Source: Gammaproteobacteria bacterium (GTDB lineage: Bacteria > Pseudomonadota > Gammaproteobacteria > Pseudomonadales > Azotimanducaceae). From it: a stretch of DNA of 64,000 nucleotides. The notes beneath the pieces are model-generated. The model saw only the letters and a list, made by a program, of their open reading frames with translations, searched no databases and was not told the origin of the DNA. The translations under genes were made by a program, and so were the position numbers. How positions within the stretch are numbered: position 1 is the first letter of the stretch; the number at the start of each line of letters is the position of its first letter. Shown in pieces: positions 44,076 through 61,463 of the stretch. The stretch spans positions 17,990 through 81,989 of the forward strand of contig JAPPGK010000119.1 in NCBI GenBank assembly GCA_028821405.1, in the 5' to 3' direction.

Positions 44076-46676
44076 ATGAACAAACCACTGGCAGTCCGAC
44101 TCACCGAGGCGAGGGCGCTCGAGGTGTCGCTGGTCGGGGGCAAGGCTCAATCGCTTGCTCGTCTGCACGCCGCGAGCTTCCCGGTGCCACAAGCCGATCT
44201 GCTCACCGTGCATTTCTTCGAGGCGTGGATCGCGGCGGTGGTGTCCGTTCCCCCGTGGCGGGACCTGCAATCGATTCTCGCCGACGCCGACGTTCCCGAC
44301 CGCGCCCGGATCGAAGCCTGTTGCGCGGTACTCAAAGCCCGCGTGCTGGGCCTCGAGCTCGACATCACGCAGCGCACCGCCCTCGACGAGATTGCGGATC
44401 GTGCCGAAGGCGGCGTTCTCGCCGTGCGCTCCTCCTCTCCCGAGGAGGACCTCGCGGGAGCTTCCTTCGCAGGCCTCTACGAGTCCGTCCTGAACGTGCC
44501 GGTCCAGCGCTTGGGTGGCGCGGTTCGGGATTGCTTCGCCTCCTGCTTCGATCCGCGCCTCCTCGTCTACAAGGCCGGGCGGAGACTGGACCTGCAACCG
44601 CGTTTCGCCGCCATCGTACAGCGCCAAGTTGCAAGCGAGGTGTCCGGTGTCGCGTTCTCGCTGAACCCGCACAACAACGACTTCGACGAGGCCGTGGTCA
44701 ACGCCACCCAAGGGCTGGGCGACAAGCTCCTTGCCGGGCAGGTCGACCCGGATCAGTGGGTTGTCGACAAGGTGACCGGCACGACGGTGACGGCCCGCGT
44801 AGGCGCCAAGCACGACGAGGGGGCCACATTCTGCTTGGACGAGGACCAACTCCGGACGGTCACCACCGCTCTGTCCGGCATCGAGTCGCTGTTCGGCCAC
44901 CCGGTCGACGTCGAGTGGGCCGTTGCGGCCGGTCGACTCCACCTGCTGCAGGCGCGACCGATCACGACCTACATTCCATTGCCCAGGGAGATCCAAACAG
45001 CCCCGGGGAAACAACGTCTGCTCTATATGGATCCGAGCCTTGGCGAAGGCATCACGATGAGCAGTGCGGTCTCGCCACTCTCCGTCGACCTCTTCGCCAG
45101 GCTTTTCGAGTGGCTCGGCGACTACGTGTTCGGGCCGTCCTTCTTCGGACCCGACTTGAAGAAAGGCATCGTCGGCGCGGCGGGGGTGCGGCTCTACGGC
45201 AACCTGTCCCACCTGATGCACTTCCGGGACCTGCGCAAGGTCGCCCCGGAAAAACGCTTCGTCGACACGACACTGGCGGAACTGTTCGCGACGGCGGACC
45301 TCGAACCCTACCGCGTGAAGCCCCCGCCGAACCTCGCACCCCGGCGGCTGATCCCCGCCTTGTGCCGGGCGTCCGTTCGGTTAGGCCCTTTCGTACGGGC
45401 ACTCTTGCGCGCGGTTTTCAGGCGCAAGGCCTTCCTCGCCGGCTATCGGGCCGACCTGGCGGCTTTCGATGCCGAGGTGGCCTCGATCAAGCCCGAGGCG
45501 CCCATTCTCGAAATGGCGCAGCGGCTCTATGCGGCGGTGGGGCGCGTAAGCCTCACGGCCTCGGCGCCCGCGATGCTGATGTTCATCTACGGCGGCACCG
45601 AAGCCCTCTTGGGAATGATAGACCCCGCCTCGTCCCGTCACCGACGCCTGGTGATGGACATGCGCGGCGGCGGCGACGAACTGGTGCTGGAAATGGGCCT
45701 TGCGATGTACCGACTCGCGAAATCGCTGCCCGCTTCGGCATTCGCCGACCTCGCCGCGCTTGCCGGGCGAATCGAGGCTCGCCGGATGCCGGCGGAGTTC
45801 CTCGCGCAGTGGGACGACTTCCTCAACCGATTCGGATGCCGCGGCCCGTTGGAGATGGACCTCGCGAACCCGAAGTACGGCGACGACCCGGGGCTGCTGT
45901 TGCGCCAACTTGCGAACCTCGCCGTGGGCGAGACCGACCCGACCGCGACCCGCGCCGAGCGAAAACGCGCCCGCGAAGCCGCCTACGCCGAACTGTCGGC
46001 CGAGCTTGCCCCGAGAAAACGCCGCAAACTCACCCGCATCCACCGGACCATAGGCGATTTCGAGAATGTCCGCGAGTTGCCCAAGCATCACTTCGCGACC
46101 GTGAACATGGTGCTTCGACGGCGGTTTCTCACAAGTGCCCGGCGCTGGGTTGCGCAAAGACGGCTGGACCGCGTGGAGGACGTCTTCGAGATGACGCTCG
46201 CCGACTTCGACCGGGCCGAAGGGGAGGAGTCTCTCGACCTTCGCGCCGTGGTCGCCGAACGTGGCGCTTTCTACCGGGACGTCAGGGCCCGGGTACGGCA
46301 TTTCCCCCATCTGATCGATTCCCGGGGACGAATCCTTCGCCCGGTTCGCGAATACCGACCGGGCGAGCTCAGCGGTGTCCCGGTGTCGCCCGGCACCGTC
46401 CGAGGGCCCGCGAAAGTGCTGGACTCCCCCTTCGACAAGACGCTGCTCCCCGGCGAAGTGCTGGTCGCGCACACCACCGATCCCGGGTGGACGCCACTGT
46501 TCATCAACGCCGCCGCGGTGCTGTTGGAAGTCGGCGGGGAGTTGCAGCACGGTGCCGTGCTCGCCAGGGAGTACGGCAAGCCGTGCGTCGCCGGGATCGT
46601 TGGCCTGATGGAAGGGTTGCGCGACGGGCAGATCGTCGAGGTCGACGGCGACCGCGGGGCCGTCCGGGTAATCTGA
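44076..46676 (+). CDS. PEP/pyruvate-binding, PEP-utilising enzyme (PEP synthase / rifampicin phosphotransferase-like)
   Basis: VSLVGGKAQSLARL, VRSSSPEEDLAGASFAGLYES, C-terminal GTVRGPAKVL...LVAHTTDPGWTPLFINAAAVLLEVGGELQHGAVLAREYGKPCV. Confidence 0.88.
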   Translation: MNKPLAVRLTEARALEVSLVGGKAQSLARLHAASFPVPQADLLTVHFFEAWIAAVVSVPPWRDLQSILADADVPDRARIEACCAVLKARVLGLELDITQRTALDEIADRAEGGVLAVRSSSPEEDLAGASFAGLYESVLNVPVQRLGGAVRDCFASCFDPRLLVYKAGRRLDLQPRFAAIVQRQVASEVSGVAFSLNPHNNDFDEAVVNATQGLGDKLLAGQVDPDQWVVDKVTGTTVTARVGAKHDEGATFCLDEDQLRTVTTALSGIESLFGHPVDVEWAVAAGRLHLLQARPITTYIPLPREIQTAPGKQRLLYMDPSLGEGITMSSAVSPLSVDLFARLFEWLGDYVFGPSFFGPDLKKGIVGAAGVRLYGNLSHLMHFRDLRKVAPEKRFVDTTLAELFATADLEPYRVKPPPNLAPRRLIPALCRASVRLGPFVRALLRAVFRRKAFLAGYRADLAAFDAEVASIKPEAPILEMAQRLYAAVGRVSLTASAPAMLMFIYGGTEALLGMIDPASSRHRRLVMDMRGGGDELVLEMGLAMYRLAKSLPASAFADLAALAGRIEARRMPAEFLAQWDDFLNRFGCRGPLEMDLANPKYGDDPGLLLRQLANLAVGETDPTATRAERKRAREAAYAELSAELAPRKRRKLTRIHRTIGDFENVRELPKHHFATVNMVLRRRFLTSARRWVAQRRLDRVEDVFEMTLADFDRAEGEESLDLRAVVAERGAFYRDVRARVRHFPHLIDSRGRILRPVREYRPGELSGVPVSPGTVRGPAKVLDSPFDKTLLPGEVLVAHTTDPGWTPLFINAAAVLLEVGGELQHGAVLAREYGKPCVAGIVGLMEGLRDGQIVEVDGDRGAVRVI

Positions 46677-46739
46677 AGTCGGAGCGTCAGGGGCGGGACG
46701 GGACAAGCCCTCCGTTCCATTCCATGCAGCAAAATGTAG

Positions 46740-48806
46740 TGTTTGTTGCCCGGCTATGGGGCGCGACGGTCCCGCCGTGTCGGGCGGCGACTCGCCGGGA
46801 GCGACCAACGCGCGCACCCGGTAACGGTTGGGCGCCAACTCCCGCGCCGCCTCAATCTGCCGGGTCGCCGTTGCCCGGTATTCCGGGTTGGTCGCGCCGA
46901 CCTCGATGTACATCTTCGCCAACCAAAGAGGCACTTCCCAGTTCTCGGGCTCCTGACGCTCGGCCCGCGGCGCTTCGGCATCGACCAGGGCCAAGAGCAA
47001 TGCCGCCTCCGGCCGGTGCCGGGTTCTCAGGAGACGCCACCGGTCTGTGGCGTACTGGAACAGGAACAACCTGAACTGGTTCGCCATCGGCTCGAAGGCG
47101 TCGATCGCCGACGCAAAGAACCTGCGGGTGTGGTTCGGTGCAACCCGGAGCGTTGGCTCCGAACTCCGGATGGCCAGCGCGCCGTAGCTGGCCGACGAAA
47201 AGGCGGCATGGTTGGCCCACAGTCCGAGACCCGCCAAGCCCGCCGCCACTACCACCGCCCCTACGGCAAGGAACCGTGGATTCATCCCTCCCCGAAGCCG
47301 CTCAAGGCGTGCAGCAAGGATCGCCACTACCTTGTCGACCCGGGAGGCAGGCCGCCGCGCGGGTTCGGCATCGCACGATGCGGCGGCGACGAACGCCAGC
47401 AGCAGCGTCATTTGCAGCGTGCCGGTGACCACTTCGGGAGACACCAGGCTCTGGGCGAAGTAGCCAACCAGTGCGCCGCCGGCAAATACCAACGGGATGC
47501 GCTCCCGCCGTCCCATCCCTCGCGCCGTGCGCAAACCCACCACGAGCAGCGCAACCCAGATGGCGAGGTGGCTCGCAATCCCCATGAAACCCCTAGTCGC
47601 GATTTCCTCCGCCAAGCGCCCGTGCGCATTGTCGTGGGCGCGCATGTCGGCACCGACGCCCTCGGCGTAGCGTCCCAACACCACGATGTAGTTTTCGGGA
47701 CCAAAGCCGAGCAGTGGTCTCTCCAGGAAACCCGCCGACGCCGCGTCCCAAGCCGCTAGCCGCGTCTCGACGGTTCGTTTCGAAAACGCCAGCGTGCGGT
47801 CGATGAGAGGGTTCGAGGATCTGGCTCGTTCGCTTCCGGGCTCCCGCTCGAAGGTCGCGACCGCCAAGGCGAACGCGACCACCCCGGTCGCCAGCAGGCA
47901 AGCCACCGCGCCGATTGCCAATCGCACGCGCCCCCGCTCCAGGCATGCGAAGAGGACAGCCACCGAGGCGAAACCGGCCATCAGCCCGAGGAACGGGCCG
48001 CGGGCTGCCGTCAGGGTCACCACCCATGCGCCGAGTAGTGCCGAGAGCCCCCAGAACAGTCTCGCCAGCCACAGCGTTCCGAGGCCCCCACGCGCCGCCG
48101 ATGCCGCCGACCCCGTGCCCTCGGCGGCATCCCCGTCGGAACGCGATGCGGTCTTGGCAATCAGCGACTCCACGAAGAAGCCAGCCGCCACGATGGTGTT
48201 GACCAGCACGTAGACGCCCAGGTGAATGGGATTGCCCAGGGTGGCCGTGACCCGCCCGTAACCGTCCGACGACGACTGCCAGATCCACGGTGCCACATCG
48301 AAATGCTGACCCGCGGCCCATACCGCGATCACCATTCCCACGGCGAGGTTGACGTTGAGGAGCACCCGCCATTGCGTGGCCCCCACCACGGACACCAGGA
48401 CGACGGCGAACACGAACCAATGGGCCTGATCCAGTACGCCCCCCATTCGCTCGTAGGTCGAGAACAGACTCCGCATCACGCTCGCCCCCTGCAATGCCGA
48501 TACGGTCGCGACCGCGAGCGCCAGGGCAAGAAGCCCGAGCAGGAGCGAACGTGGCGGCCGGTACCTCGGGTTGGACACGGCGAGCACGACCCAGGCGACG
48601 AATACGACCTCGACGATGCAGCGGAACAGCAGCGCCTTGCCGACGAGAAAGGGAAAGATCGTCGGCGGGAAAAAGACCAACTGATCGTTGACGACAAGCG
48701 GAAAAAACGCGGTCTCCCCACTGACGACAAGCGGGGTGAGCAGGATCAGTCCGATCCCGACCCAGATCACGCCAAGGGCGGCACGTTCGATTGGGCGAAG
48801 CGGCAT
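46740..48806 (-). CDS. O-antigen ligase (Wzy/WaaL-like) membrane protein; no in-frame stop before 45381
   Basis: Many TM segments; RLAAWDAASAGFLERPLLGFGPENYIVVLGRY...DNAHGRLAEEIATRGFMGI ligase-type motif; C-terminal boundary approximate. Confidence 0.75.
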
Positions 48807-48911
48807 GGAAAGGACGGACTCGGCGACACCCACACGCTAACACCTTTGGGTACCGACGGACTATGATGTTTGGTTCGTAAGAGTGGGCGTAGCCGAGAGT
48901 TCGGGGAGGCG

Positions 48912-49640
48912 ATGGCCGCGGTCGCGCAACAGCAAGGTCCGGAACCCGTCATCCGGGTCAGCGATCTGCACAAGAACTACCGTATGGGATCCGACACCAT
49001 CCATGCGCTGAACGGTGTCGACTGCGCGATTCGCGAGAACGAATACGTGGCCGTCATGGGGCCGTCCGGTTCCGGGAAATCCACCCTGATGAACATCATC
49101 GGGTGCCTTGACCGCCCCTCGAGCGGCGAGTATTGGCTGTCCGGCGAGAATGTCTCCAAGCTGGGCGACAAGTCGCTCGCCCGCGTACGCAACCGGCGGA
49201 TCGGCTTCGTGTTCCAGACCTTCAATCTGCTGCCCCGGGCCACCGCCCTGCAGAACGTCGAGATTCCGCTGATGTACGGCGGTGTGGGGCGTCGCCAACG
49301 CCGCGCCCGGGCCCGCGCAACCCTGGAACGCGTCGGCCTCAAGGACCGCATGAAGCACAAGCCGAGCGAGTTGTCCGGCGGCCAGCGTCAACGCGTTGCG
49401 GTTGCACGGGCTCTCGTGAACGAGCCGGAAATCCTACTCGCCGACGAGCCCACCGGAAATCTCGACAGCCGCACCGGCGAGGACATCATGGACCTGTTCG
49501 ACACCCTGTACGATACGGGTCAGACCATCATTCTCGTGACCCACGAGACGCATATTGCTGCTCGCGCGCACCGCCACGTCCATCTGCACGACGGTGTCGT
49601 GACCCAAGACCACAGCCGGAGTAGGACCGATGTCCAGTAG
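48912..49640 (+). CDS. ABC transporter ATP-binding protein, MacB/LolD type
   Basis: [60 protein letters not shown]. Confidence 0.93.
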
Positions 49641-51177
49641 CGATGCCAACGCCGCCCTCCGCCGGGGCACTCGTAGATTACTGACCGTCGTGGTCACGCT
49701 CGCGATGGCCGGTTGCGACCAGATCGAGGAGATGATTGCAGGAAGCGACGATCAAGCCGTGGAGGAGGACGCCTTCTTCGAAGCCGCCGGGGTCGTCCGG
49801 GGCAACATCCGGGTGGCGGTCGAAGCCGCCGGGGGCATCGAGCCGGTGACCACCGTGGAAGTCAAATCGAAGGCGTCGGGCGAGATTCTCGAACTGCACG
49901 TCGACACCGGCGATACCGTCGAGGCGGGCACACTGCTGGCGCGGATCGACCAGCGCATGCTCAAGAACAATCTGGATCAGGCCAAGGCGAGCCTCGAGGT
50001 TTCCCGCGCCGAATTGACCAACGCCGAGTCGCAGCTTGAACGGATTCAGAAACTCTACGAACGGGAGTCCCTATCGAAGGCCGACTACGAACAATCCATG
50101 CTGCAGCATGCGGCGGCCAGGTCGCAGGTCGTGCGTGGCGAGATCCAGGTCGAGAACGCCGAAATCGCGCTTGAGGATGCCATCGTCAAAGCGCCGATCT
50201 CGGGTACCGTCATCGAGCGTCTCGTCGAACAGGGCCAGGTCATCTCCTCGCCGATGGGCGATGTCGGCGGCGGCACGCTATTGCTGCAGATGGCCGACCT
50301 CGCCAGGGTCCGGGTGCGGATGCTGGTAGACGAGATCGACATCGGCAAGGTGGTGCCCGGGACCATTGCGCAGGTCAACGTCGCCGCCTACCCCACCCGC
50401 TCCTTCGAAGGCGCGGTCCTCAAGGTCGAACCCCAAGCCAGTCCGCAACAGAATGTCACCATGTTCCCGGTGCTGATCGACCTGGACAACGCCGAAGGGC
50501 TCCTAAAGCCCGGCATGAACGCCGAAGTCGAACTGGTGGTCGCCGATCGCACCGACGTGCTGACCATTCCGAACGCGGCATTGCGGACGGAGGCCGACGT
50601 CTACGTCGCCGGTGGCGTCGTGGGCTTAAGCGAAGATCAGGTCCAAGAGATGCTCGCCGCGTCAACCCTGCCGCCGCGGCCCGGTCGCACGGAGGGAGGA
50701 GCATCCCCCGGCGCAGGCGGCATGTCGGCCGAGGACCAGCAGATGTTCCGCTCCATCATGACCAAGCGCCGCAACGGCGAGGAACTCACCGAGGAGGAAC
50801 AGGCGTTTTCCCGCAAGATGATGCAGCAGTTTCGTCGGGGTGGTGGCGGACCCGGTCGGGGTGGTCCGCGTGCCGGTGGCGGCGGCCGGGGTGGTCCGCC
50901 GGGCGGCGGATTCGGCGCTGAGCGGCCCCGAAGCTCGTCCATCGAGTCCCAGTTCGGCGGCGACTTCATCGTGTACGCGTTGCGTGACGAGCAGCCGGTT
51001 GCCGTTCGTGTACGTGCGGGGGTCACGGACCTCGACCGTACCGAGATCGTCGCGGGACTGACGGAGGAGGACGAGGTGCTGATTCTGCCCAGCGCATCGT
51101 TGATCCAGGCCCAGGAGTACTTCCAGCAGCGAATGCGCCGCTGGAACCAAAACCCGCTGATGAGCGGATCCAGCTAG
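49630..51177 (+). CDS. Efflux periplasmic adaptor, MacA-like, with Gly/Arg-rich linker
   Basis: [49 protein letters not shown]. Confidence 0.9.
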
Positions 51178-51208
51178 GCCCGCCTGGGCACCGAGGATGC
51201 GCTAGCAC

Positions 51209-52420
51209 GTGACCGTTTTCGAGACCATACGGGTCGCGCTGGAGTCGATCGTCCACAACCTGCTGCGGTCGACCCTTACCATGCTCGGCATCATCATCGG
51301 CGTGGCGGCGGTGATCGCGATCGTCGCATTGATCACCGGCGCCCAGCGCGCCGTCGACGAGCAGATCTCGCAACTCGGAGGCGCACGGGTGCTGTCCGTA
51401 CAGCCGGGCCAGTCGTATTGGCGCGGCGTCGCCTCGGCAAACCGGGTTTCGATGACGATCGACGACTACGAAGCCCTGGTGCAGGACGCCCACTACCTGG
51501 AGGAACTCGTGCCGGAGATCTCGAGCTACGGGCAGATCAAGTTCGGCAATCAGAACCTGAACCACCGCATCAACGGCACGACGCCAAACTACCCGGAGGT
51601 CCACCGCATCGAGGTGGAACACGGCAGGATGTTCAGCGAGGGGGACGTGCTGGCCCACCGCCGCATGGCCGTGCTCGGCCAGGAGATCCCCGTCAACCTC
51701 GACATGGAACCCGAGACCATGCTCGGCCGCACCGTACTGATAAACCGCGTGCCGTTTCAGGTCGTCGGCGTCTTCGAGCGGGTGGGCGCCCCGTGGCAAA
51801 ACCCCGACGACGACATCTTCATTCCCATCACGACGGCGGAACAGCGTGTCATCGGCAACGACCGTCTGGATCGGATGTCCGCCAAGGTTGCCGACGGCGT
51901 GCCCCTGGAGACGGGAATGGTCGACGTCGAACGCGTCCTGCGCCGCGAACACAAGATCCGCCCGGGCGGCCAGAACGACTTCATGATCATGAACCGCCAG
52001 CAGTTCGTCGAGGCGCAGCAACAGTCGATGGCGATCTTCGCCTACCTTCTCGGCGGCGTGGCCAGCGTCAGCCTGCTGGTCGGCGGTATCGGCGTCATGA
52101 ACATCATGTTGGTGTCGGTGACCGAACGCATCCGCGAAATCGGCGTCCGCAAGGCGCTCGGCGCGACCCGGTTCAACATCCTGACCCAGTTCCTCACCGA
52201 AGCGCTCACCATCGGCGCCCTCGGCGGCATGCTCGGCATCGCCCTCGGTGCCGGCATCGCGACCGCCATGGCCAATCTCGCCGGCTTCAACACCTACGTG
52301 TCCATCGAAGCCGTCATCCTCGCCGTCGGCGTGAGCGTCGGCGTCGGCCTCATCTTCGGCGTCTGGCCTGCCCGGCGGGCAGCGCAGTTGGACCCCGTGG
52401 AGGCGCTGCGCCACGATTGA
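51209..52420 (+). CDS. ABC transporter permease, MacB/FtsX type
   Basis: LRSTLTMLGIIIGVAAVIAIVAL, GGIGVMNIMLVSVTERIREIGVRKALGAT, VWPARRAAQLDPVEALRHD. Confidence 0.93.
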   Translation: MTVFETIRVALESIVHNLLRSTLTMLGIIIGVAAVIAIVALITGAQRAVDEQISQLGGARVLSVQPGQSYWRGVASANRVSMTIDDYEALVQDAHYLEELVPEISSYGQIKFGNQNLNHRINGTTPNYPEVHRIEVEHGRMFSEGDVLAHRRMAVLGQEIPVNLDMEPETMLGRTVLINRVPFQVVGVFERVGAPWQNPDDDIFIPITTAEQRVIGNDRLDRMSAKVADGVPLETGMVDVERVLRREHKIRPGGQNDFMIMNRQQFVEAQQQSMAIFAYLLGGVASVSLLVGGIGVMNIMLVSVTERIREIGVRKALGATRFNILTQFLTEALTIGALGGMLGIALGAGIATAMANLAGFNTYVSIEAVILAVGVSVGVGLIFGVWPARRAAQLDPVEALRHD

Positions 52421-52449: not shown

Positions 52450-55400
52450 CTATTCACCTGTCTCGGCGCGATGCGGGTGCATCGAGAACCACGCGTCGAT
52501 GTGCGCTGCACTGCGTTGCCGGATTTCGGCAAGTAACCGGGCCAAGTCCTCGACCGCTACCGCACCGCAGGCTTGCGCCAGCGTCGACTGCTCCTCCGGC
52601 GACAGACGCGTGGGATCCTGATCGACGCCCACCATGCGCATGAAGCCGTCGAAGTTCTGCCACAGCCTTGTCGCGCCTGCCAGGTCCGCTGCGAGTGTCG
52701 CATCGATCAGACCCTGCTCCGCCCCAGCCTCCAAAGTCGACACCAGACCGTCGGCAACGTTGGCGGTACCCGGTGCTGCCCGGGCGACCACGAGAAGCAG
52801 GTGCTCGACGAAGAGCTCGATGTCGGCAAGCCCGCCCGGTTCACCAAGTACGTCCCACTGGCCTTCGCCTCGCGTCGGGCGCTGCGCCGAGAGCGCCTCG
52901 CTAAGCGCGTCGAGTTGCCGGTCCCGGCCGAGAGCTGCCTGACGGACCGCTTCGAAGCCTTCTCCGAGACCGCCGTCGGCAAATATCACGCGGGCATGCA
53001 CCAGCATGCGCAGGTCGGCGGCGGACGGCCCGTCCGCGTAGTACTCCTCGAAAGCACGAAGCGAATACGCCGAGACGGGATGACCTTCCCCGTGCCACGG
53101 CGGATGCGCCCTGTAGAGCATCGCCGCAGGCGACAATTCGCCGATGACGCGCAGGAAGCGCTGCAGCAATGACGTGTGCCAGGCCTGCGCGTCGACCGGG
53201 GACGCGGTTCGCGCAGCAGGGCAGTCGTACAGAAACAACAGCTTAAGCGATCCACCAATGGCGAACTCCTGGCGTCCGTGTGCGTCCAGGGCCACCAAGG
53301 CCAGGGAGGCGTCCGACATCGGACCATGTTCGGCGGCGACATCCCGCCGCACGGCGGCCAGCGTCTGGACCAGACACGTATCGACAATGTCCGAGAGCGG
53401 TCGCGCGGCCTCCCGGGGTTCCACCGCGCCCCGCAGCATGTGTGCACCCAGCTGAAACGCGCGCTGCTGGGCCCAGTTGCGTATCTCACGGACGAGATCG
53501 TCGGTCGAGGGTGCCTTCTCGGCAATCGCCGACAACTGCTCACCCATCGCCTGGCGGTCGAATTCTCGCTGGTAGTAGAGCCGAACCAGCCCGGTACGGG
53601 CGATGCGGGCGGTTTCGGGATCCAGTCCCTCCTCGTCCTCGATCACGAGGTCGGTGAACTCGCGGCTCTCCAGGCTGTCCTGAAGGAAGGGGTAGCGCGC
53701 CATCCATTGCGCAATGCGCGGCGCCCTGCCGACGAGGTCGGCGAGACTCGTGGCCGTGCGCCGGGTGCGGGTGCCGACGCCGTGCAGGATTAGCCATAGG
53801 GCCGGTACGAAAACGAGCGCCGCCACCGAGGACACCACGATGCCGAAGGCCAGCGAAACCACCATGGGTACCATCGGCGCGGCACTGGGACTTTGCGTCA
53901 ACATCAACGGCGTGACGCCGACGAAAGACGTCACGGTGGTAATCAGAATCGGCCGGCACCTGGACGCGGCGGCATTCTCCAAGGCCGCTTCCACGGCATC
54001 CCCATCGGCGCGGAAGCGCTGCACGCCGTGCAGCAGCACCAAGGAGGCATTGATCGCCACCCCCGCCGCTGCCAAGAGCCCGAACGCGGACGGCATCGAA
54101 AAGCCGAGCACGATGCCCGGGATCATGGCCAGAAGGTGCCCCAAGACCGCGCCCACGAAGCAGAACGGCAGCACGGCCATCACGATGAGCGGCTGATGAT
54201 ACGAGCGTAGCGGGATCGCGAGGAGCGCGTAGATGGCACCAAGCGCCGCCAGGAATAGCGGGCCCGCGCTCGCCACGGTTTCCCTGACGGCCCGGTTGCT
54301 TTCGATCTCGTAGCCAAGTCCGGGATTCGCGCCGACCGTGGCGTTTAGGAACGGGGCCATCGCATCCAGCACCGCGTTGCCGGACGTCTGGTTCAGGTCG
54401 ACCTTGGCGGAGACGTTGACCGAACGCACGCTGTCGACACGCTCGATCAACTGCGTTCCCCGTCCCCATTTCCCTTCAGCCACGGTGCGGAACGGCACGT
54501 ACGTGCCCGTGGGCGTGCGGACGTGGAGCGACTGCAGGGACTCAAGCGATCGCCGCGCGTGGGCCGGGTAGCGAACCATGACGCGCAGGTCGTCCTCCCC
54601 GCGCTGGACGCGTTGCGCTTCCTCGCCGTAGAAGGCTTGCCTGACCTGCCGCCCCACGTCGGAGAGGGTCAGTCCAAGCGCCGCGCCGGCGTCGGTGAGC
54701 GACACCGAAAGTTCCTCCTTTCCTTCCCTGAACGAGTTGGCGACCTCTAGGACGCCCGGGTAGCCGGCCAGCTCGGCCTCCACCGCGGCGGAAACCGCGC
54801 GCAGATCGTCCATGCTGTCCCCGAACAGCCGGATGTCGATGTCGGGGGCGAGCTGCCGGAAGTCGGTCACGAAGACAAGCTGCGCGGCATCCTCGATGGG
54901 CCCTGTCGCACTGCGCCACGCGTCTGCCACCTCGACGGTCGAGATCTCGCGCCTCTCCGATGGCGACAACTGCAGATAGATCTCGCCGAGGTGGCTTCCG
55001 GTGGGGACCTGGTCGCCGCCGCCGCTCCCGCCAGGGAGGTGCGAGCCGTGAGATTCGGCTATGTGCGTGATCACGGGTGCTCCGTATTGCCGCGCGAGTT
55101 CGGTCTGCAACGCCCGGGCCGACGCCACCAATCGTCCGAGCGCGCGGTCGGTGTCGTGCTGCGGCACCCCGAACGGCATGGTCAGCTTGGCCACGATCCG
55201 GTCGCCCTGATCCGAGATCAGGAAGGAGAACGGCAAGTGGCCGCCGACCACCACCGCGACGGCGAGCCCGAACGCAACGACCCCGGACGTGACGGTCAGT
55301 GCGCGCCTTCGAAGCGCACGCCGGACCACGCGGCGGAAAGCGCCTTGGATGAACGTCTCGAGCCCGCGTTCGAAGCGCACCTGAACGCGGGCGAATGCCG

Positions 55401-57020
55401 CCCCCAGCCGACGCAGCGCGCCGCTGACGTTTGCAGCCACCACCAGGCATAGGACTCCGATCACGAGGCCAATGGCATCGCGCCCATCCGCTGCCAGCAC
55501 GACTGCGGCCAGCACGGCGACGGCCAGCACGGCGATGCCGAACTCGCCAAGCGGCATCGAGTCCGGCCGATGGCCCAGATGCAGCGGCAGGATCACGTGG
55601 CATTCGATCAGCGAAAACGCCAGGCAGCAGATCACCGGCGCCGCGACGGCCGCCATGAACTGACCGGCGACGCCGGTGAGGAAGAGCATCGGGACGAACG
55701 CGGCCACAGTCGTCAGGACCCCAAACGTGACGGGTACGAACACGCGCCGGCCCCTTCGAGGGCACCGGCAAGCTGCCCCGCGCCTTCGCGCTGCGCCACG
55801 TAGGCGGACTCGCCGACGACCACCGCGTCGTCGACCAAGAGCCCGAGAACCAATATGAAGCCGATGAGCGAAATCGCGTCGATCGAGACGCCTAGACAGA
55901 ACAGCAGGAACACGGCGCCGAGCAGGGCGATCGGGATGCCCACCGCAACCCATAGCGCCAAGTGCGGCCGCAGGAACAGCGCGAGTACCACGAGCACCAG
56001 CACGAGCCCCTGCAGCCCGCTATCGATCAACGTTGCCAGGCGGTCCACAAGCAACGACGATTGGTCGTTCCAGACGGTGAGGGTGACGTCTTCCGGGTAT
56101 TTCCCCCGGGACTCGGCCACATAGCGACTGACCTCGGCCGATATCTCCCGGAGATCCTGGCTGCCCACCTGGGAGACGCGAACGAGCGCCGCCGGACGTC
56201 CGTCGAACCGGAACTCCTGCCCGGTATCGGCGAAGCCGTCCACGACGCGCGCGACATCCTCCAAAAGCACGCGCGTGCCGTCGTCGCGGGTGGTCACCTC
56301 GATTCTGCCGAATTCCTCCCCGCGCTCCGCTTGCCCTTGCGTGCGCAGCAGCAGTTCGCCCCGATCCGTCTTGATCGCCCCGCCCGGCAGGTCGAGGGAA
56401 TTGCCGCGAATGGCGCCCGCGACTTGATCGAAGGTGAGTCGATTCCGCTGCAGCGACGCATCGGAGACCTCGACGGAGATCTCGTAGGGGCGCACGTTGG
56501 CGACAGATGCCCGGGTGATCGCCGGCAGGGCCAGCAAGTCGTTGCGCACCCGGCGCGCCAGCTCCTTCAAGTCCCGCTCGTCGGTCGGACCCGTGACCGC
56601 CACCTCGACCACCACGTCGCTTGACGACAGCAGCCTCACGACGGGCGTTTCCGTCTCCTTCGGCAACGTATCGATGGCGTTGACCTGGTTCTGGACGTCG
56701 GCAAGCACGGCTGCCCGGTCTGCATCGAATAGCAAGGCGACCATCACCCGGCATCGTCCCTCCTCCGCGGTGGATCGAATGCGGTCGACGCCGTCGAGGC
56801 CGTCGAGCTTCTCGTCGATGCGTGCACAGACCGCTGTTTCGACTTCCTCGGGCGCAGCACCGAGGTACGGAACCACGATGCTGATGACCGGCACGTCGAG
56901 ATCGGGCCAGATCTGCACGGGTATGCGCGCGAACGACGCGATGCCCGCAAGCAGCAGGAATGCAACCAGGAGATTGGTCGCCACCGGATTGGTGGCGAAC
57001 CAGGAGACCACGCGTTTCAC
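52450..57020 (-). CDS. RND efflux permease fused to C-terminal half of a GlnE-like adenylyltransferase; one frameshift near 55750
   Basis: N-part ORF 57020..55713 (MKRVVSWFATNPVATNLLVAF... VDDAVVVGESAYVAQREGAGQLAGALEGA) continues in ORF 55953..52450 (RVFVPVTFGVLTTVAAFVPMLFLTGVAGQF...); from about 53730 onward GlnE-like. Confidence 0.8.
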
Positions 57021-58207
57021 GGCGAGGGTTCCGGTGCGCCCCCGTTGCCCGCCGTCCGGACGCGTAGTCCGTCGACCGCGCCCGGCAGCCGCGTCAGGGA
57101 GACCCGTTCGCCGCGCTGCAAACCCAGGACGTAGGCTTCCTCGCCGAGCAGGCGCAACACTTCCACCTCGCGCACGGCGAGCCGATCATCTGCCTCGACG
57201 ACATGGACATGCCCTTGTGACTGGAGCGCGGCCCGTGGAAGCACCGCAAGGTTGCTGAACTCGCGTCCCTCGATCTCGGCGTCGACGAAAAGGCCCACCG
57301 TGAGCGGCGGCTTGCCCTTCGGCTGGTCGTAGGGCCGCTGCACTTCGGCGATCAACTTGACCATCCGCGTCCCGGGGTCGATTTCGCCTTCCGTGCGCAC
57401 GATTCGCCCGCGCCACTCATGCTCGCGACCCGCGAACCGGGCGCGCAGCACCACACTAAGCCGGGCCGCAGGGTCCAACGCGCCGCCGAGGGACACCGGC
57501 AGAAACGCCAGATCCTCGTCGTGCACCGGCAGGCGCACTTCGGCGACATCAACCGAATAGAGATTGGCAAGGGTCTCCCCCCGGTTCACGAACTGGCCCG
57601 GATCCACCAGTTCGCTGCGGACACGACCGTCATACGGCGCGACGACACGCGTTCGCGCCAGATCCCGTTCCGCACGTTTCTCTTGGGCGGTTGCGTCGCG
57701 AAAGCTCGCTTCGGCCAACAGGTGGCGGTTTTCCGCTTCGTCGCGGTTCGATTCGCTGCCTGCCTCCGTCGCGGCCAGCCGTTCGTGGCGGGCAAGCGCC
57801 CGACGTGCCTGGGCCAGCTCGCTTGTAGCCGAGGACAGCCGTGCGCGTGCCTGCTCCAGCGCCAGTTCGTAGTCGACGCGGTCTATGGTGACCAAGACGT
57901 CGTCGCGCCGGAAGAAACCGCCGGACACCATGGAATCGGCTACGGACACGATGCGACCGGAAACCTCGGCGACCAGGCGGCTCTCGGTCTTCGGCAACAC
58001 CACGCCATGCGCTGCCACCGTTAGCAGGACCGGCCCCGGCCGCACCTCCACGAAACGCACCAGCGGTGGCTGGATCCCAGAGTCTTCCGGCTCGGTGACC
58101 GGCCCCGTCGCCACGATCACGACCATCAGCGCGAGACCCACGACGGCGATCGAGAACGAGCCGAGGTAGCGCTTGATGGTCGTCCAGCTAGGCAGAGCCC
58201 GACTCAT
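57017..58207 (-). CDS. RND efflux periplasmic adaptor (HlyD/MFP)
   Basis: VVLPKTESRLVAEVSGRIVSVADSMVSGGFFRRDDVLVTID, VVAPYDGRVRSELVDPGQFVNRGETL; overlaps permease start. Confidence 0.88.
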   Translation of the reverse strand: MSRALPSWTTIKRYLGSFSIAVVGLALMVVIVATGPVTEPEDSGIQPPLVRFVEVRPGPVLLTVAAHGVVLPKTESRLVAEVSGRIVSVADSMVSGGFFRRDDVLVTIDRVDYELALEQARARLSSATSELAQARRALARHERLAATEAGSESNRDEAENRHLLAEASFRDATAQEKRAERDLARTRVVAPYDGRVRSELVDPGQFVNRGETLANLYSVDVAEVRLPVHDEDLAFLPVSLGGALDPAARLSVVLRARFAGREHEWRGRIVRTEGEIDPGTRMVKLIAEVQRPYDQPKGKPPLTVGLFVDAEIEGREFSNLAVLPRAALQSQGHVHVVEADDRLAVREVEVLRLLGEEAYVLGLQRGERVSLTRLPGAVDGLRVRTAGNGGAPEPSP

Positions 58208-58277: not shown

Positions 58278-61200
58278 TCAGGTCGCCGCATCGGCTTGTC
58301 GCGGCCACACCACCCGGGCGCGTTCGCGGACGCCTTCCCCGAGCAGCAGGATGGCGGGGACCACGAAGAGTATCCCCAAGCTGCCCGCCGCAAGCCCGCC
58401 GATGATGCTGACCACCATCGGCACATAGTTGTTTATCGTCGCCTCGGACTTCAGGTACAGCACGGGCAACAGGCCGCCGACGGTCGTCACCGTGGTCAGG
58501 AAGATCGGTCGGAAACGTTCGCGCACGGCACCCGCGATCGCCGCGATGGCCGGCAGGTCCGAACCGGCGCGCAGGCTGTTGCAACGATCCATGAGGAGCA
58601 GCGTGTCATTGATGACGACCCCGAGCACGGCGACCACCCCGAATACCGACGTCAGGTTCATGTCGTAGCCCAGCAACAGGTGCGCCAGCACGGCACCGGC
58701 CGCTGCCAGCGGCATCGCCGTCAGCACCACCAGCGGCTGCACGTAGCTGCGAAACTGCACCGCGATGATGGTGTAGATCACCAGGAGGGCGACCGGCAGC
58801 GTGTAGGCCAGCGGCGCCAGCGATTGCTCGTCGTCATCCACCCCCGCACGAGCCCACGCAAGGCCAAGACCCGGATAGCGCGCCTGCAGTTCCGGCAGCA
58901 GGGTGTCTTCGACCTGGGCCCGCAGCTCGCGCGAGGTCGTCACCGCACGATCCACGAAGCTGCCCACCACCGCGGCGGGAACGCCGTCGATCCGCATCAA
59001 CGTTTCGAGCTCCCGTGTCTCCACCACCCTCGCCGCCACCCCCAGCGGGATGTCGCCCCCCACGGGCAACTCGATGCGCTCATCCGCCAGCTCGGCGAAG
59101 CTTCGCCGCCGGTCCTCCGGATAGCGGACCATGACCTTGACTTCATCCCGGCCGCGCTGGATGCGCTGCACCTCGGTGCCGAAGAAGCGCGCCCGGAGCT
59201 GCGAGGCCAAATCGGCCCCCGTCAGTCCGGCCGCCTTTCCGGCGGGGGTCAGGTGCAGATCGAAGTGGCGCCGACCCGGCGTCAGCGAATCGTACACGTC
59301 CAGTACACCAGGGGCCGTCTGGACAACTGCGGCCAGATCCGACGCGGCGCGCGCGAGCACGTCGCTATCCGCGTGGACCAGAGCCACCGAAAGGTCGTAG
59401 CCATCGCCCCCGTATCGGTCGGCGGTAGCGAACGTCAGCCGGTCGGCGCCGACGATCTCGCCGGCATTGCCCCGCCAGGTGCGGGCGACCTCTTCGGCGC
59501 TGACCGTGCGTTGCGACTCGTCCCGCAACTGAAGCGTTACGGCGGCCAGATGGGTCGCCTGTCCCCCGTCCCCGAGGAAGATGCCGCGGGGAGGATGGTG
59601 TCCCACGACGGTGGCCACCGACGCAATCGGCGACCCATCGAGCTGCTCGTTGCTCCGTCTGGCGGCTTCCTCCAACTGCCGGGCACCGACGCGCGCAACT
59701 TCCAGCGGCGTTCCCACCGGATAGGTGATGGCCGCCTCGACTCTACCGGTTCCAAGCGCCGCCACGTCGCCGGCTCGAACGACGCCGCCCAAAACCAGGG
59801 CACCACTGACGACCACCAGTGCGGCCGCCACCAGCACCGCCGCGACCGGGTGGCGGGTCGCCATGGCCACAGCCGGTACCGCGACGCGGTCGCGGAGAGC
59901 CTCGATGGCCTCCCTGACCCGCGCCTGCACTGCGGCCAGGGGCCAGCGGCTCCAGTCGCCACCGTGGGCCAAGTGCGACGGTAGGATCAAGAACGCCTCC
60001 AACAGCGATACGCCCAGCACCAGGACGGCGACAATCGGGAACACGCTCAGAAACTGGCCCAACACGCCGTAGGTGAACAGTAGGGGTGCGAACGCCAGCA
60101 AGGTCGTCGCGACGCCCACCGCCACCGGCCAGAACACACGCTGCGCCCCGGCAATCGCTGCCTCCGCCCCCATGAGGCCGCGTTCGCGTTCGGTCGCGAC
60201 GCTCTCCCCCACCACGACCGCGTCGTCGACGACAATCCCGATCATCGTGATCATCGCGAAGATCGTGGCCAGGTTGAAGGTGAGATCGAACGCCGGGAAC
60301 AACACCACCGCACCCAGGAAAGACACCGGCAGACCGACCGCCACCCACGTCGCCAACCGAAAATCGAAAACCAGCGCAAGGACCAGGAACACCAGCACCA
60401 GGCCCAGCGCACCGGTCCCGGTGACCAGGTCCATGCGGGCCGACGCCCGCCGGGAACTGTCTTGCCAAACCGACACGTGGGCACCCGGCGGCGGCGCGTA
60501 GTCGGCGAGCATCGCGCGCACATCGCGCGCAATCTGCACCTCCGACTCCCCTTTATGCACCGCCAGCGCGGTCACGAAAACGGCCGGCACGCCGTCGAGC
60601 TCGGTAGCACCCACGGCGTCTCCAAACCCTTCGCTGACTTCCGCCACGTCACCTACGGTCACCAGCGCGCCGCCAGGGGACGACAGCAGTACCACGTCCT
60701 CGAACTCCTCGGCGCGAACGCGCCGGTCGTCGACGCGGACGACGAGGCCGCCGGCACTGGTCAGCAGGCGCCCCGAAGTGAGGTCCACCGACGAGCCGCG
60801 CACCTTGCGCGCCACCTCGCCGATGGTCAGGCCATGCTCGCGCAATGCCTCCTCGTCGACTTCGATGGCGATCTCCCGCTCGGGCGACCAGTCAAGCGAC
60901 ACGCTTGATACCGACCCTAGCGCAAGCATGTCCTCCCGCAGCCGCTCGACGGCCACGCGCAGCGCGTGTGCCGATAGCTCTGCGGAGGACAACGCCACCG
61001 TGATCGCCGGGACGTGCTTGAAGGGGACGCCGATCTCGGGACGCTCGGCGTCTGGCGGCGGAAACCTCTCGATGCGATCGATCGCCGTACGCGCCTCCTC
61101 CAGCACTTCCTCGGTGTCCGCGAATGCATCCACCGACAGCGTCACGGTGCCGACATCGGACGACGCTTCGGAGACCACCCTGCGAACCCCGGTCAACCCG

Positions 61201-61463
61201 ATCACCCGCTCCTCGATTCGGCGGGTGATGCTCTCCTCGACCTCCGTAGGACTCGACCCGGGGTACGGCACCGTGACGGCGACTCTCCTGGAGTCCACGT
61301 CCGGGATGATTTCGACATCGATCCCCGACGCGACGAGAAGCCCGCCGCCCAGCGCAAGCAGCACGAGTAGGCTGCCCGCCACCCGGCGGTGCACGAAGGC
61401 GGCAATAACCGCGCCCACGCCCGTGGCACCCCCGCCTGAACCGGGGTTCGCCGCCGTGGTCAT
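58278..61463 (-). CDS. RND efflux permease (HAE1/AcrB-like)
   Basis: VEIIPDVDSRRVAVTVPYPGSSPTEVEESITRRIEE, MITMIGIVVDDAVVVGESV, FRPIFLTTVTTVGGLLPVL. Confidence 0.93.
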   Translation of the reverse strand: MTTAANPGSGGGATGVGAVIAAFVHRRVAGSLLVLLALGGGLLVASGIDVEIIPDVDSRRVAVTVPYPGSSPTEVEESITRRIEERVIGLTGVRRVVSEASSDVGTVTLSVDAFADTEEVLEEARTAIDRIERFPPPDAERPEIGVPFKHVPAITVALSSAELSAHALRVAVERLREDMLALGSVSSVSLDWSPEREIAIEVDEEALREHGLTIGEVARKVRGSSVDLTSGRLLTSAGGLVVRVDDRRVRAEEFEDVVLLSSPGGALVTVGDVAEVSEGFGDAVGATELDGVPAVFVTALAVHKGESEVQIARDVRAMLADYAPPPGAHVSVWQDSSRRASARMDLVTGTGALGLVLVFLVLALVFDFRLATWVAVGLPVSFLGAVVLFPAFDLTFNLATIFAMITMIGIVVDDAVVVGESVATERERGLMGAEAAIAGAQRVFWPVAVGVATTLLAFAPLLFTYGVLGQFLSVFPIVAVLVLGVSLLEAFLILPSHLAHGGDWSRWPLAAVQARVREAIEALRDRVAVPAVAMATRHPVAAVLVAAALVVVSGALVLGGVVRAGDVAALGTGRVEAAITYPVGTPLEVARVGARQLEEAARRSNEQLDGSPIASVATVVGHHPPRGIFLGDGGQATHLAAVTLQLRDESQRTVSAEEVARTWRGNAGEIVGADRLTFATADRYGGDGYDLSVALVHADSDVLARAASDLAAVVQTAPGVLDVYDSLTPGRRHFDLHLTPAGKAAGLTGADLASQLRARFFGTEVQRIQRGRDEVKVMVRYPEDRRRSFAELADERIELPVGGDIPLGVAARVVETRELETLMRIDGVPAAVVGSFVDRAVTTSRELRAQVEDTLLPELQARYPGLGLAWARAGVDDDEQSLAPLAYTLPVALLVIYTIIAVQFRSYVQPLVVLTAMPLAAAGAVLAHLLLGYDMNLTSVFGVVAVLGVVINDTLLLMDRCNSLRAGSDLPAIAAIAGAVRERFRPIFLTTVTTVGGLLPVLYLKSEATINNYVPMVVSIIGGLAAGSLGILFVVPAILLLGEGVRERARVVWPRQADAAT

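Follow-up and report, generated by a model that had tools for sequence, protein, structure and literature searches.

Results

Organization of the fusion gene

The window, that is, the whole 64,000-nucleotide stretch of DNA analysed here, carries on its reverse strand a gene in which an RND permease is fused to a pseudo-GlnE (AT-C-like) domain (52450..57020), as delimited by Pfam matches to ACR_tran and GlnE and by tblastn of the ortholog L037. The open reading frame 55953..52450 on this strand is free of stops, and both Pfam matches share its frame: ACR_tran covers residues 190-724, with a whole-protein E of 9e-64, and residues 801-1001 match GlnE (PF03710; E 7e-16, above the cut-off). The tblastn alignment with the intact L037, at 87-92% identity, located a frame change at 55719-55749 in the window copy and placed the true gene start at about 57020 rather than at the ORF start, 55953. 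The first ~73 residues of this ORF are therefore an out-of-frame translation. The sequence-only reading had reported the ORF as a single RND-GlnE protein; the common frame of the two modules stood, but the N-terminal ~73 residues and the start did not.

The gene can be divided into three parts, all on the reverse strand. The 5' part of the RND gene, from TM1 to about TM4-5, lies in the other frame (55713..57020; ORF of 435 aa, ACR_tran profile positions 3-421), and the in-frame rest of the RND module extends to TM12 and a short linker (53743..55749). The cytoplasmic pseudo-adenylyltransferase domain, a homologue of the C half of GlnE, begins near position 53742 and consists of 420-430 aa with no predicted transmembrane segment (52450..53742). 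Its first 60 aa (53563..53742) form its most conserved segment and the proposed docking surface, followed by the degenerate nucleotidyltransferase motif ALDAHGRQEFAIGGSLKLLFLYD, in which the catalytic SDxD is lost (53227..53301), and by the retained GlnE signature GGLADIELFVEHLLL (52792..52836). The ACR_tran module and the Asp-Asp pair in TM4 are complete in the paralog L034 and in the orthologs and frame-broken in the window copy, which, with its frame change, may be non-functional.

The fusion gene is adjoined by a gene of the same operon and strand for a membrane-fusion protein (HlyD_3, 57017..58207), and such a gene is found beside many fused RND loci. A second RND permease of the operon (58278..61463, reverse strand) is unfused and has no GlnE domain. 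On the other side, a MacA/MacB-like ABC efflux operon (48870-52420, forward strand) is convergent with the fused RND gene. Further along, a Wzy_C O-antigen-ligase-like protein is encoded in a 1150-aa frame on the reverse strand (45381-48833); its tail resembles an antisense translation, leaving the gene end uncertain.

The fused domain is a degenerate GlnE C half

Profile searches with the fused domain matched the C-terminal half of GlnE in NCBIfam, at positions 617-972 of PRK14108 (E 1e-28, far under the curated cut-off of that family) and at positions 554-903 of PRK11072 (E 3e-20). Among PDB profiles, the E. coli AT-C structure 3k7d was matched with E 5e-26 and the AT-N structure 1v4a with E 1e-14. 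The AF2 model of the domain, built from 28 aligned sequences, reached a pLDDT of 84 and a pTM of 0.86, and its top Foldseek matches were again 1v4a and 3k7d (E ~1e-12, TM 0.69), so that the predicted fold of the fused domain is that of GlnE. The assignment of the C-terminal region to GlnE, first proposed from the letters of the sequence, is thus borne out by the Pfam, NCBIfam and PDB profiles and by the fold match. The fusion contains a single C-half-like unit; the two-half nucleotidyltransferase (NTase) arrangement and the central regulatory domain of GlnE are absent.

Not one of 58 domains of the fused or GlnE2-C kinds (GlnE2 is described below) keeps the three catalytic Asp residues (SDxD, DxRLRP), compared with all 64 canonical or GlnE2-N halves, which confirms the earlier observation that SDLDL and DARLRP have been lost. 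Positions 1 and 3 are never acidic in the RND-type domains. In the desaturase-type domains described below, an acidic residue is present at position 2 in 15/21 and at position 1 in 5/21, and never at position 3. The GRRE and GGL-D-E parts of the GlnE motif stay conserved in the fused domains. Judged by its active-site residues, the fused GlnE half is catalytically dead.

RND-GlnE fusions as a gene family

The host genome contains exactly two PF03710 matches, both of them RND fusions; the separate full-length glnE whose presence had been put as a question is absent. The second fusion is intact, in a frame of 1630 aa (G000:C61). Among 207 genomes of the family, RND-GlnE fusions occur in the genera g1 (that of the window), g7 and g44, with up to about three per genome. 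The RND modules of 25 fusions form one clade with a support of 100, and their nearest unfused sisters (L152 and L153, 50-52% identity) have no GlnE domain. One RND fusion event followed by duplication is the simplest reading of this tree. Between close copies, omega was 0.18-0.27 for the fused domain and 0.07-0.19 for the RND module; on these ratios, purifying selection acts on the fused domain (omega about 0.2), which evolves faster than the RND module (about 0.1). The roughly 30 fusions examined come from separate assemblies of three related genera, and together with the intact copy in the same genome they establish the fusion as a genuine architecture. The alternative raised at the outset, a deletion-born chimera or an assembly error confined to one genome, has the frame change at 55719-55749 in its favour and is of negligible probability in view of ~30 loci from separate assemblies that form one clade and are under selection.

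In the RND subfamily of L034, L054, L152 and L153, an additional two hydrophobic segments lie between TM6 and TM7, in fused and unfused members alike. An extra TM pair specific to the fusions was thus rejected, since the unfused L152 and L153 carry it as well. Of two candidate free-standing pseudo-GlnE genes (L184 and L185, 458 and 377 aa), L184 proved to be an interrupted fusion, with a single stop between the RND frame and the domain; L185 stays a candidate. No phage origin was found in a viral scan with A1, and for plasmid spread only ordinary GlnE of <30% identity appeared among the matches listed. The named records matching the fusion are gammaproteobacterial MAGs. Their bin prefixes, COS, IRC and RHO among them, resemble Coscinoderma, Ircinia and Rhopaloeides, host sponges that occur together in PMC8163846, and the carriers are apparently sponge-associated.

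The same domain on an AlkB-like oxygenase

Frames of ~800 aa in g1, g7, g8 and g44 combine an FA_desaturase match (Pfam) with the same degenerate GlnE half. The membrane module of this desaturase-type fusion is AlkB-like (8f6t, E 1e-48; 8sbb, E 7e-40). Its gene belongs to a conserved operon that encodes NHLM-type ABC exporters, a ~440-aa NHLP-leader protein, the AlkB-pseudoGlnE fusion, a TOMM/YcaO protein of ~780 aa and one more protein of 375 aa, and that is kept in about 20 loci (L122:3-13254 plus L055-L067, L105-L110 and L126-L133). The adjacent leader, YcaO and exporter genes were matched by TIGR03793 (E 1e-11, slightly below the cut-off), TIGR03604 (E 5e-82) and TIGR03797 (E 5e-198), respectively. 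The NHLP leader is fused to a ~360-aa body with a weak SQHop_cyclase_C match, the YcaO protein is SagCD-like, and the 375-aa protein has no family match. In one locus (L107:4215-8936, reverse strand, G063), a single frame of 1574 aa without a stop spans both the AlkB-pseudoGlnE and the YcaO protein. The genome of the window itself gave no match to the AlkB-pseudoGlnE type. A fusion-specific N-terminal profile run on order and class samples detected another two carriers, both desaturase-type and from other families, which suggests horizontal spread of AlkB-pseudoGlnE.

Origin of the fused domain

Genomes of g44 and one g7 genome encode a second full-length GlnE of the alpha-type (PRK14108), here called GlnE2, in which the N half is intact and the C half is degenerate. 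The GlnE2 loci (L099-L104, L124 and L125) lie in a genus that also has canonical gamma-type GlnE. In a tree of 122 half-domains, the RND-type (support 100) and desaturase-type (98) domains each formed a group; the two were joined (97), with GlnE2-C as their sister group (100), among the C halves, and a careful tree of a half-domain subset concurred (99/95). On this topology, the source of all fused domains was presumably the C half of the alpha-type paralog GlnE2, which was dead by that time, and each fusion type has a single origin, with one fusion to the RND lineage and one to the AlkB-like oxygenase.

Glutamine synthetase background

Among 58 genomes of relatives, which are related to each other and do not represent independent data points, GlnE and GSI-beta are both present in 33 and both absent in 22; three have GSI-beta only, and none has GlnE only. 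In the genus of the window (G000-G015), there is no canonical GlnE, and no GSI-beta above the cut-off except for a split match in G010, a 74%-complete MAG that is one of the three GSI-only genomes. The genome of the window itself has no match to TIGR00653 (GSI-beta) above the cut-off and encodes GSII (L138), GSIII (L137) and a GS-like protein, together with PII and GlnD. With both GlnE and GSI-beta missing from the genus, it is very unlikely that the fused domain modifies GSI-beta in this genome.

A conserved segment at the start of the domain

The first 60 aa of the fused domain share the motif APRLxxWxxRYPxxxxSL..EFTDL...ARxGLxRLYY. RND- and desaturase-fused domains are 46% identical over this segment and 24% identical over the NTase core. 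EF[TA]DL is present in 31/31 domains of set A2; EFTDL was rejected as a universal motif, the g44 RND copy L184 having EFQAV instead. In all listed RND fusions, 34-40 aa separate the last transmembrane helix from EFTDL. AF2 confidence is lowest at domain residues 21-40 (59-62), which is expected if an absent partner orders the segment and may merely reflect a shallow alignment. A model of the RND C half together with the domain was poor (pTM 0.45), left the same segment under 50 and gave no usable docking information. From the high conservation, the nearly constant spacing to the membrane and the low AF2 confidence, we infer that this segment is a docking surface.

Discussion

We favour, with a probability of about 50%, the reading that the fused domain is a membrane-tethered pseudo-enzyme that serves as a docking or regulatory module and does not adenylylate glutamine synthetase. 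The dead adenylylation half, which goes back to a GlnE paralog of the alpha type, joined an RND permease lineage once, at the cytoplasmic C-terminus, and an AlkB-like membrane oxygenase once, and selection has retained both fusions. In the proposed scheme, the conserved N-terminal helical segment, which in the RND fusions follows TM12 at a nearly fixed 34-40 residues, would bind a putative cytosolic partner, which may be a protein, a peptide or a substrate carrier, and this binding would either recruit the partner to the membrane protein or gate the membrane protein. Against this reading stand the faster evolution of the domain relative to the RND module, the altered motif of some g44 RND copies, the shallow alignment as a simple reason for the low AF2 confidence, and the frame change in the window copy. 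A wider form of this proposal is possible but doubtful: the pseudo-AT-C could be a general adaptor through which efflux pumps and the RiPP-modifying AlkB oxygenase bind a common cytosolic partner or signal, and which arose in a lineage in which some members have given up GlnE control of glutamine synthetase.

Other functions can be weighed against the same observations. Pseudo-enzymes frequently turn into sensors, and the dead NTase pocket might, without catalysing a reaction, bind a nucleotide or a related metabolite and thereby gate the pump or oxygenase. The retained predicted NTase fold and the conserved GRRE and GGL-D-E parts are in keeping with such a ligand sensor; however, it is the N-terminal segment and not the NTase core that is best conserved between the two fusion types, and the metal-binding Asp residues for a nucleotide-Mg complex are gone, making this function unlikely. 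It is rather improbable that the domain merely helps its host membrane protein to fold or oligomerise. The fixed spacing between TM12 and the domain would suit an assembly or stability role, as would the location of the C-terminus in the cytoplasm, which is known from AcrB and AlkB and is common to hosts of different membrane folds; yet the nearest unfused RND sisters manage without the domain, and 420 aa on trimeric RND and AlkB-type hosts are unlikely to serve the same oligomer.

Coupling of efflux to nitrogen status, through binding of PII or another nitrogen signal by the GlnE half, had been suggested from the sequence. PII and GlnD genes are indeed present in the genome, and the ancestor of the domain comes from a PII-regulated enzyme. 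PII control of GlnE has reportedly been assigned to the central regulatory domain, which the fusion lacks; the genus is devoid of GlnE and essentially of GSI-beta, and the same domain is attached to an oxygenase of a RiPP operon, so that this suggestion fared poorly and nitrogen coupling seems decidedly improbable. Residual nucleotidyl transfer onto a protein by non-canonical residues would agree with the purifying selection and with the acidic second position in 15/21 desaturase-type copies, but no copy keeps all three Asp residues, and the acidic residues missing throughout from positions 1 and 3 of the RND type and position 3 of the desaturase type (position 1 in only 5/21) make such activity highly implausible.

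Returning to the favoured docking or regulatory module, its components can be compared with known systems. The fused domain is homologous to AT-C of E. coli GlnE (3k7d) over a half-unit, has the same predicted fold and keeps the GGxxDIE signature. It differs from GlnE in consisting of one half without the central domain or the catalytic Asp residues, in its attachment to membrane proteins and in the absence of GSI-beta from its genomes. Like HAE/AcrB-type RND permeases (ACR_tran), the RND fusions possess the full RND module, the TM4 Asp-Asp pair and, at many loci, an upstream membrane-fusion protein gene; they differ by the 420-aa cytoplasmic C-terminal domain and by the two hydrophobic segments between TM6 and TM7 that are common to fusions and unfused sisters. 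AlkB-AlkG is a fusion of an alkane monooxygenase with a C-terminal rubredoxin (PDB 8f6t). The desaturase-type fusion likewise places a soluble domain on the cytoplasmic C-terminus of an AlkB-type membrane module, but a pseudo-GlnE half replaces the rubredoxin and the gene lies within an NHLP/YcaO operon. Sponge NHLP/YcaO clusters are already known (PMC9426513, PMC10858898), and the main text of both papers makes no mention of an adenylyltransferase. The operon shares the NHLP-type leader and the YcaO cyclodehydratase with the srp-type proteusin azol(in)e clusters of these papers (PMC9426513, PMC10858898), and unlike them adds the AlkB-pseudoGlnE and a leader fused to a large body; set against the srp type, it also carries NHLM-type exporters beside the leader and YcaO.

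In the literature searched, which covered few subscription journals, no description of an RND-GlnE, AlkB-GlnE or desaturase-GlnE fusion was found. The component families are all known; the novelty appears to lie in how they are combined and in a single dead domain having been put to use on two membrane proteins that are unrelated. The fusions cleanly illustrate how the dead half of a metabolic regulator has found new use as a fixed module of unrelated membrane proteins, a broken enzyme having seemingly evolved into a reusable membrane-attached part. The presumptive source, GlnE2, survives in sister genera, and the original target, GSI-beta, has been lost from the genus of the window. The RND-pump and AlkB-oxygenase fusions open the function of a pseudo-enzyme to direct testing, and, on the favoured reading, a regulatory domain of this size on the cytoplasmic side of an RND pump would be unusual.
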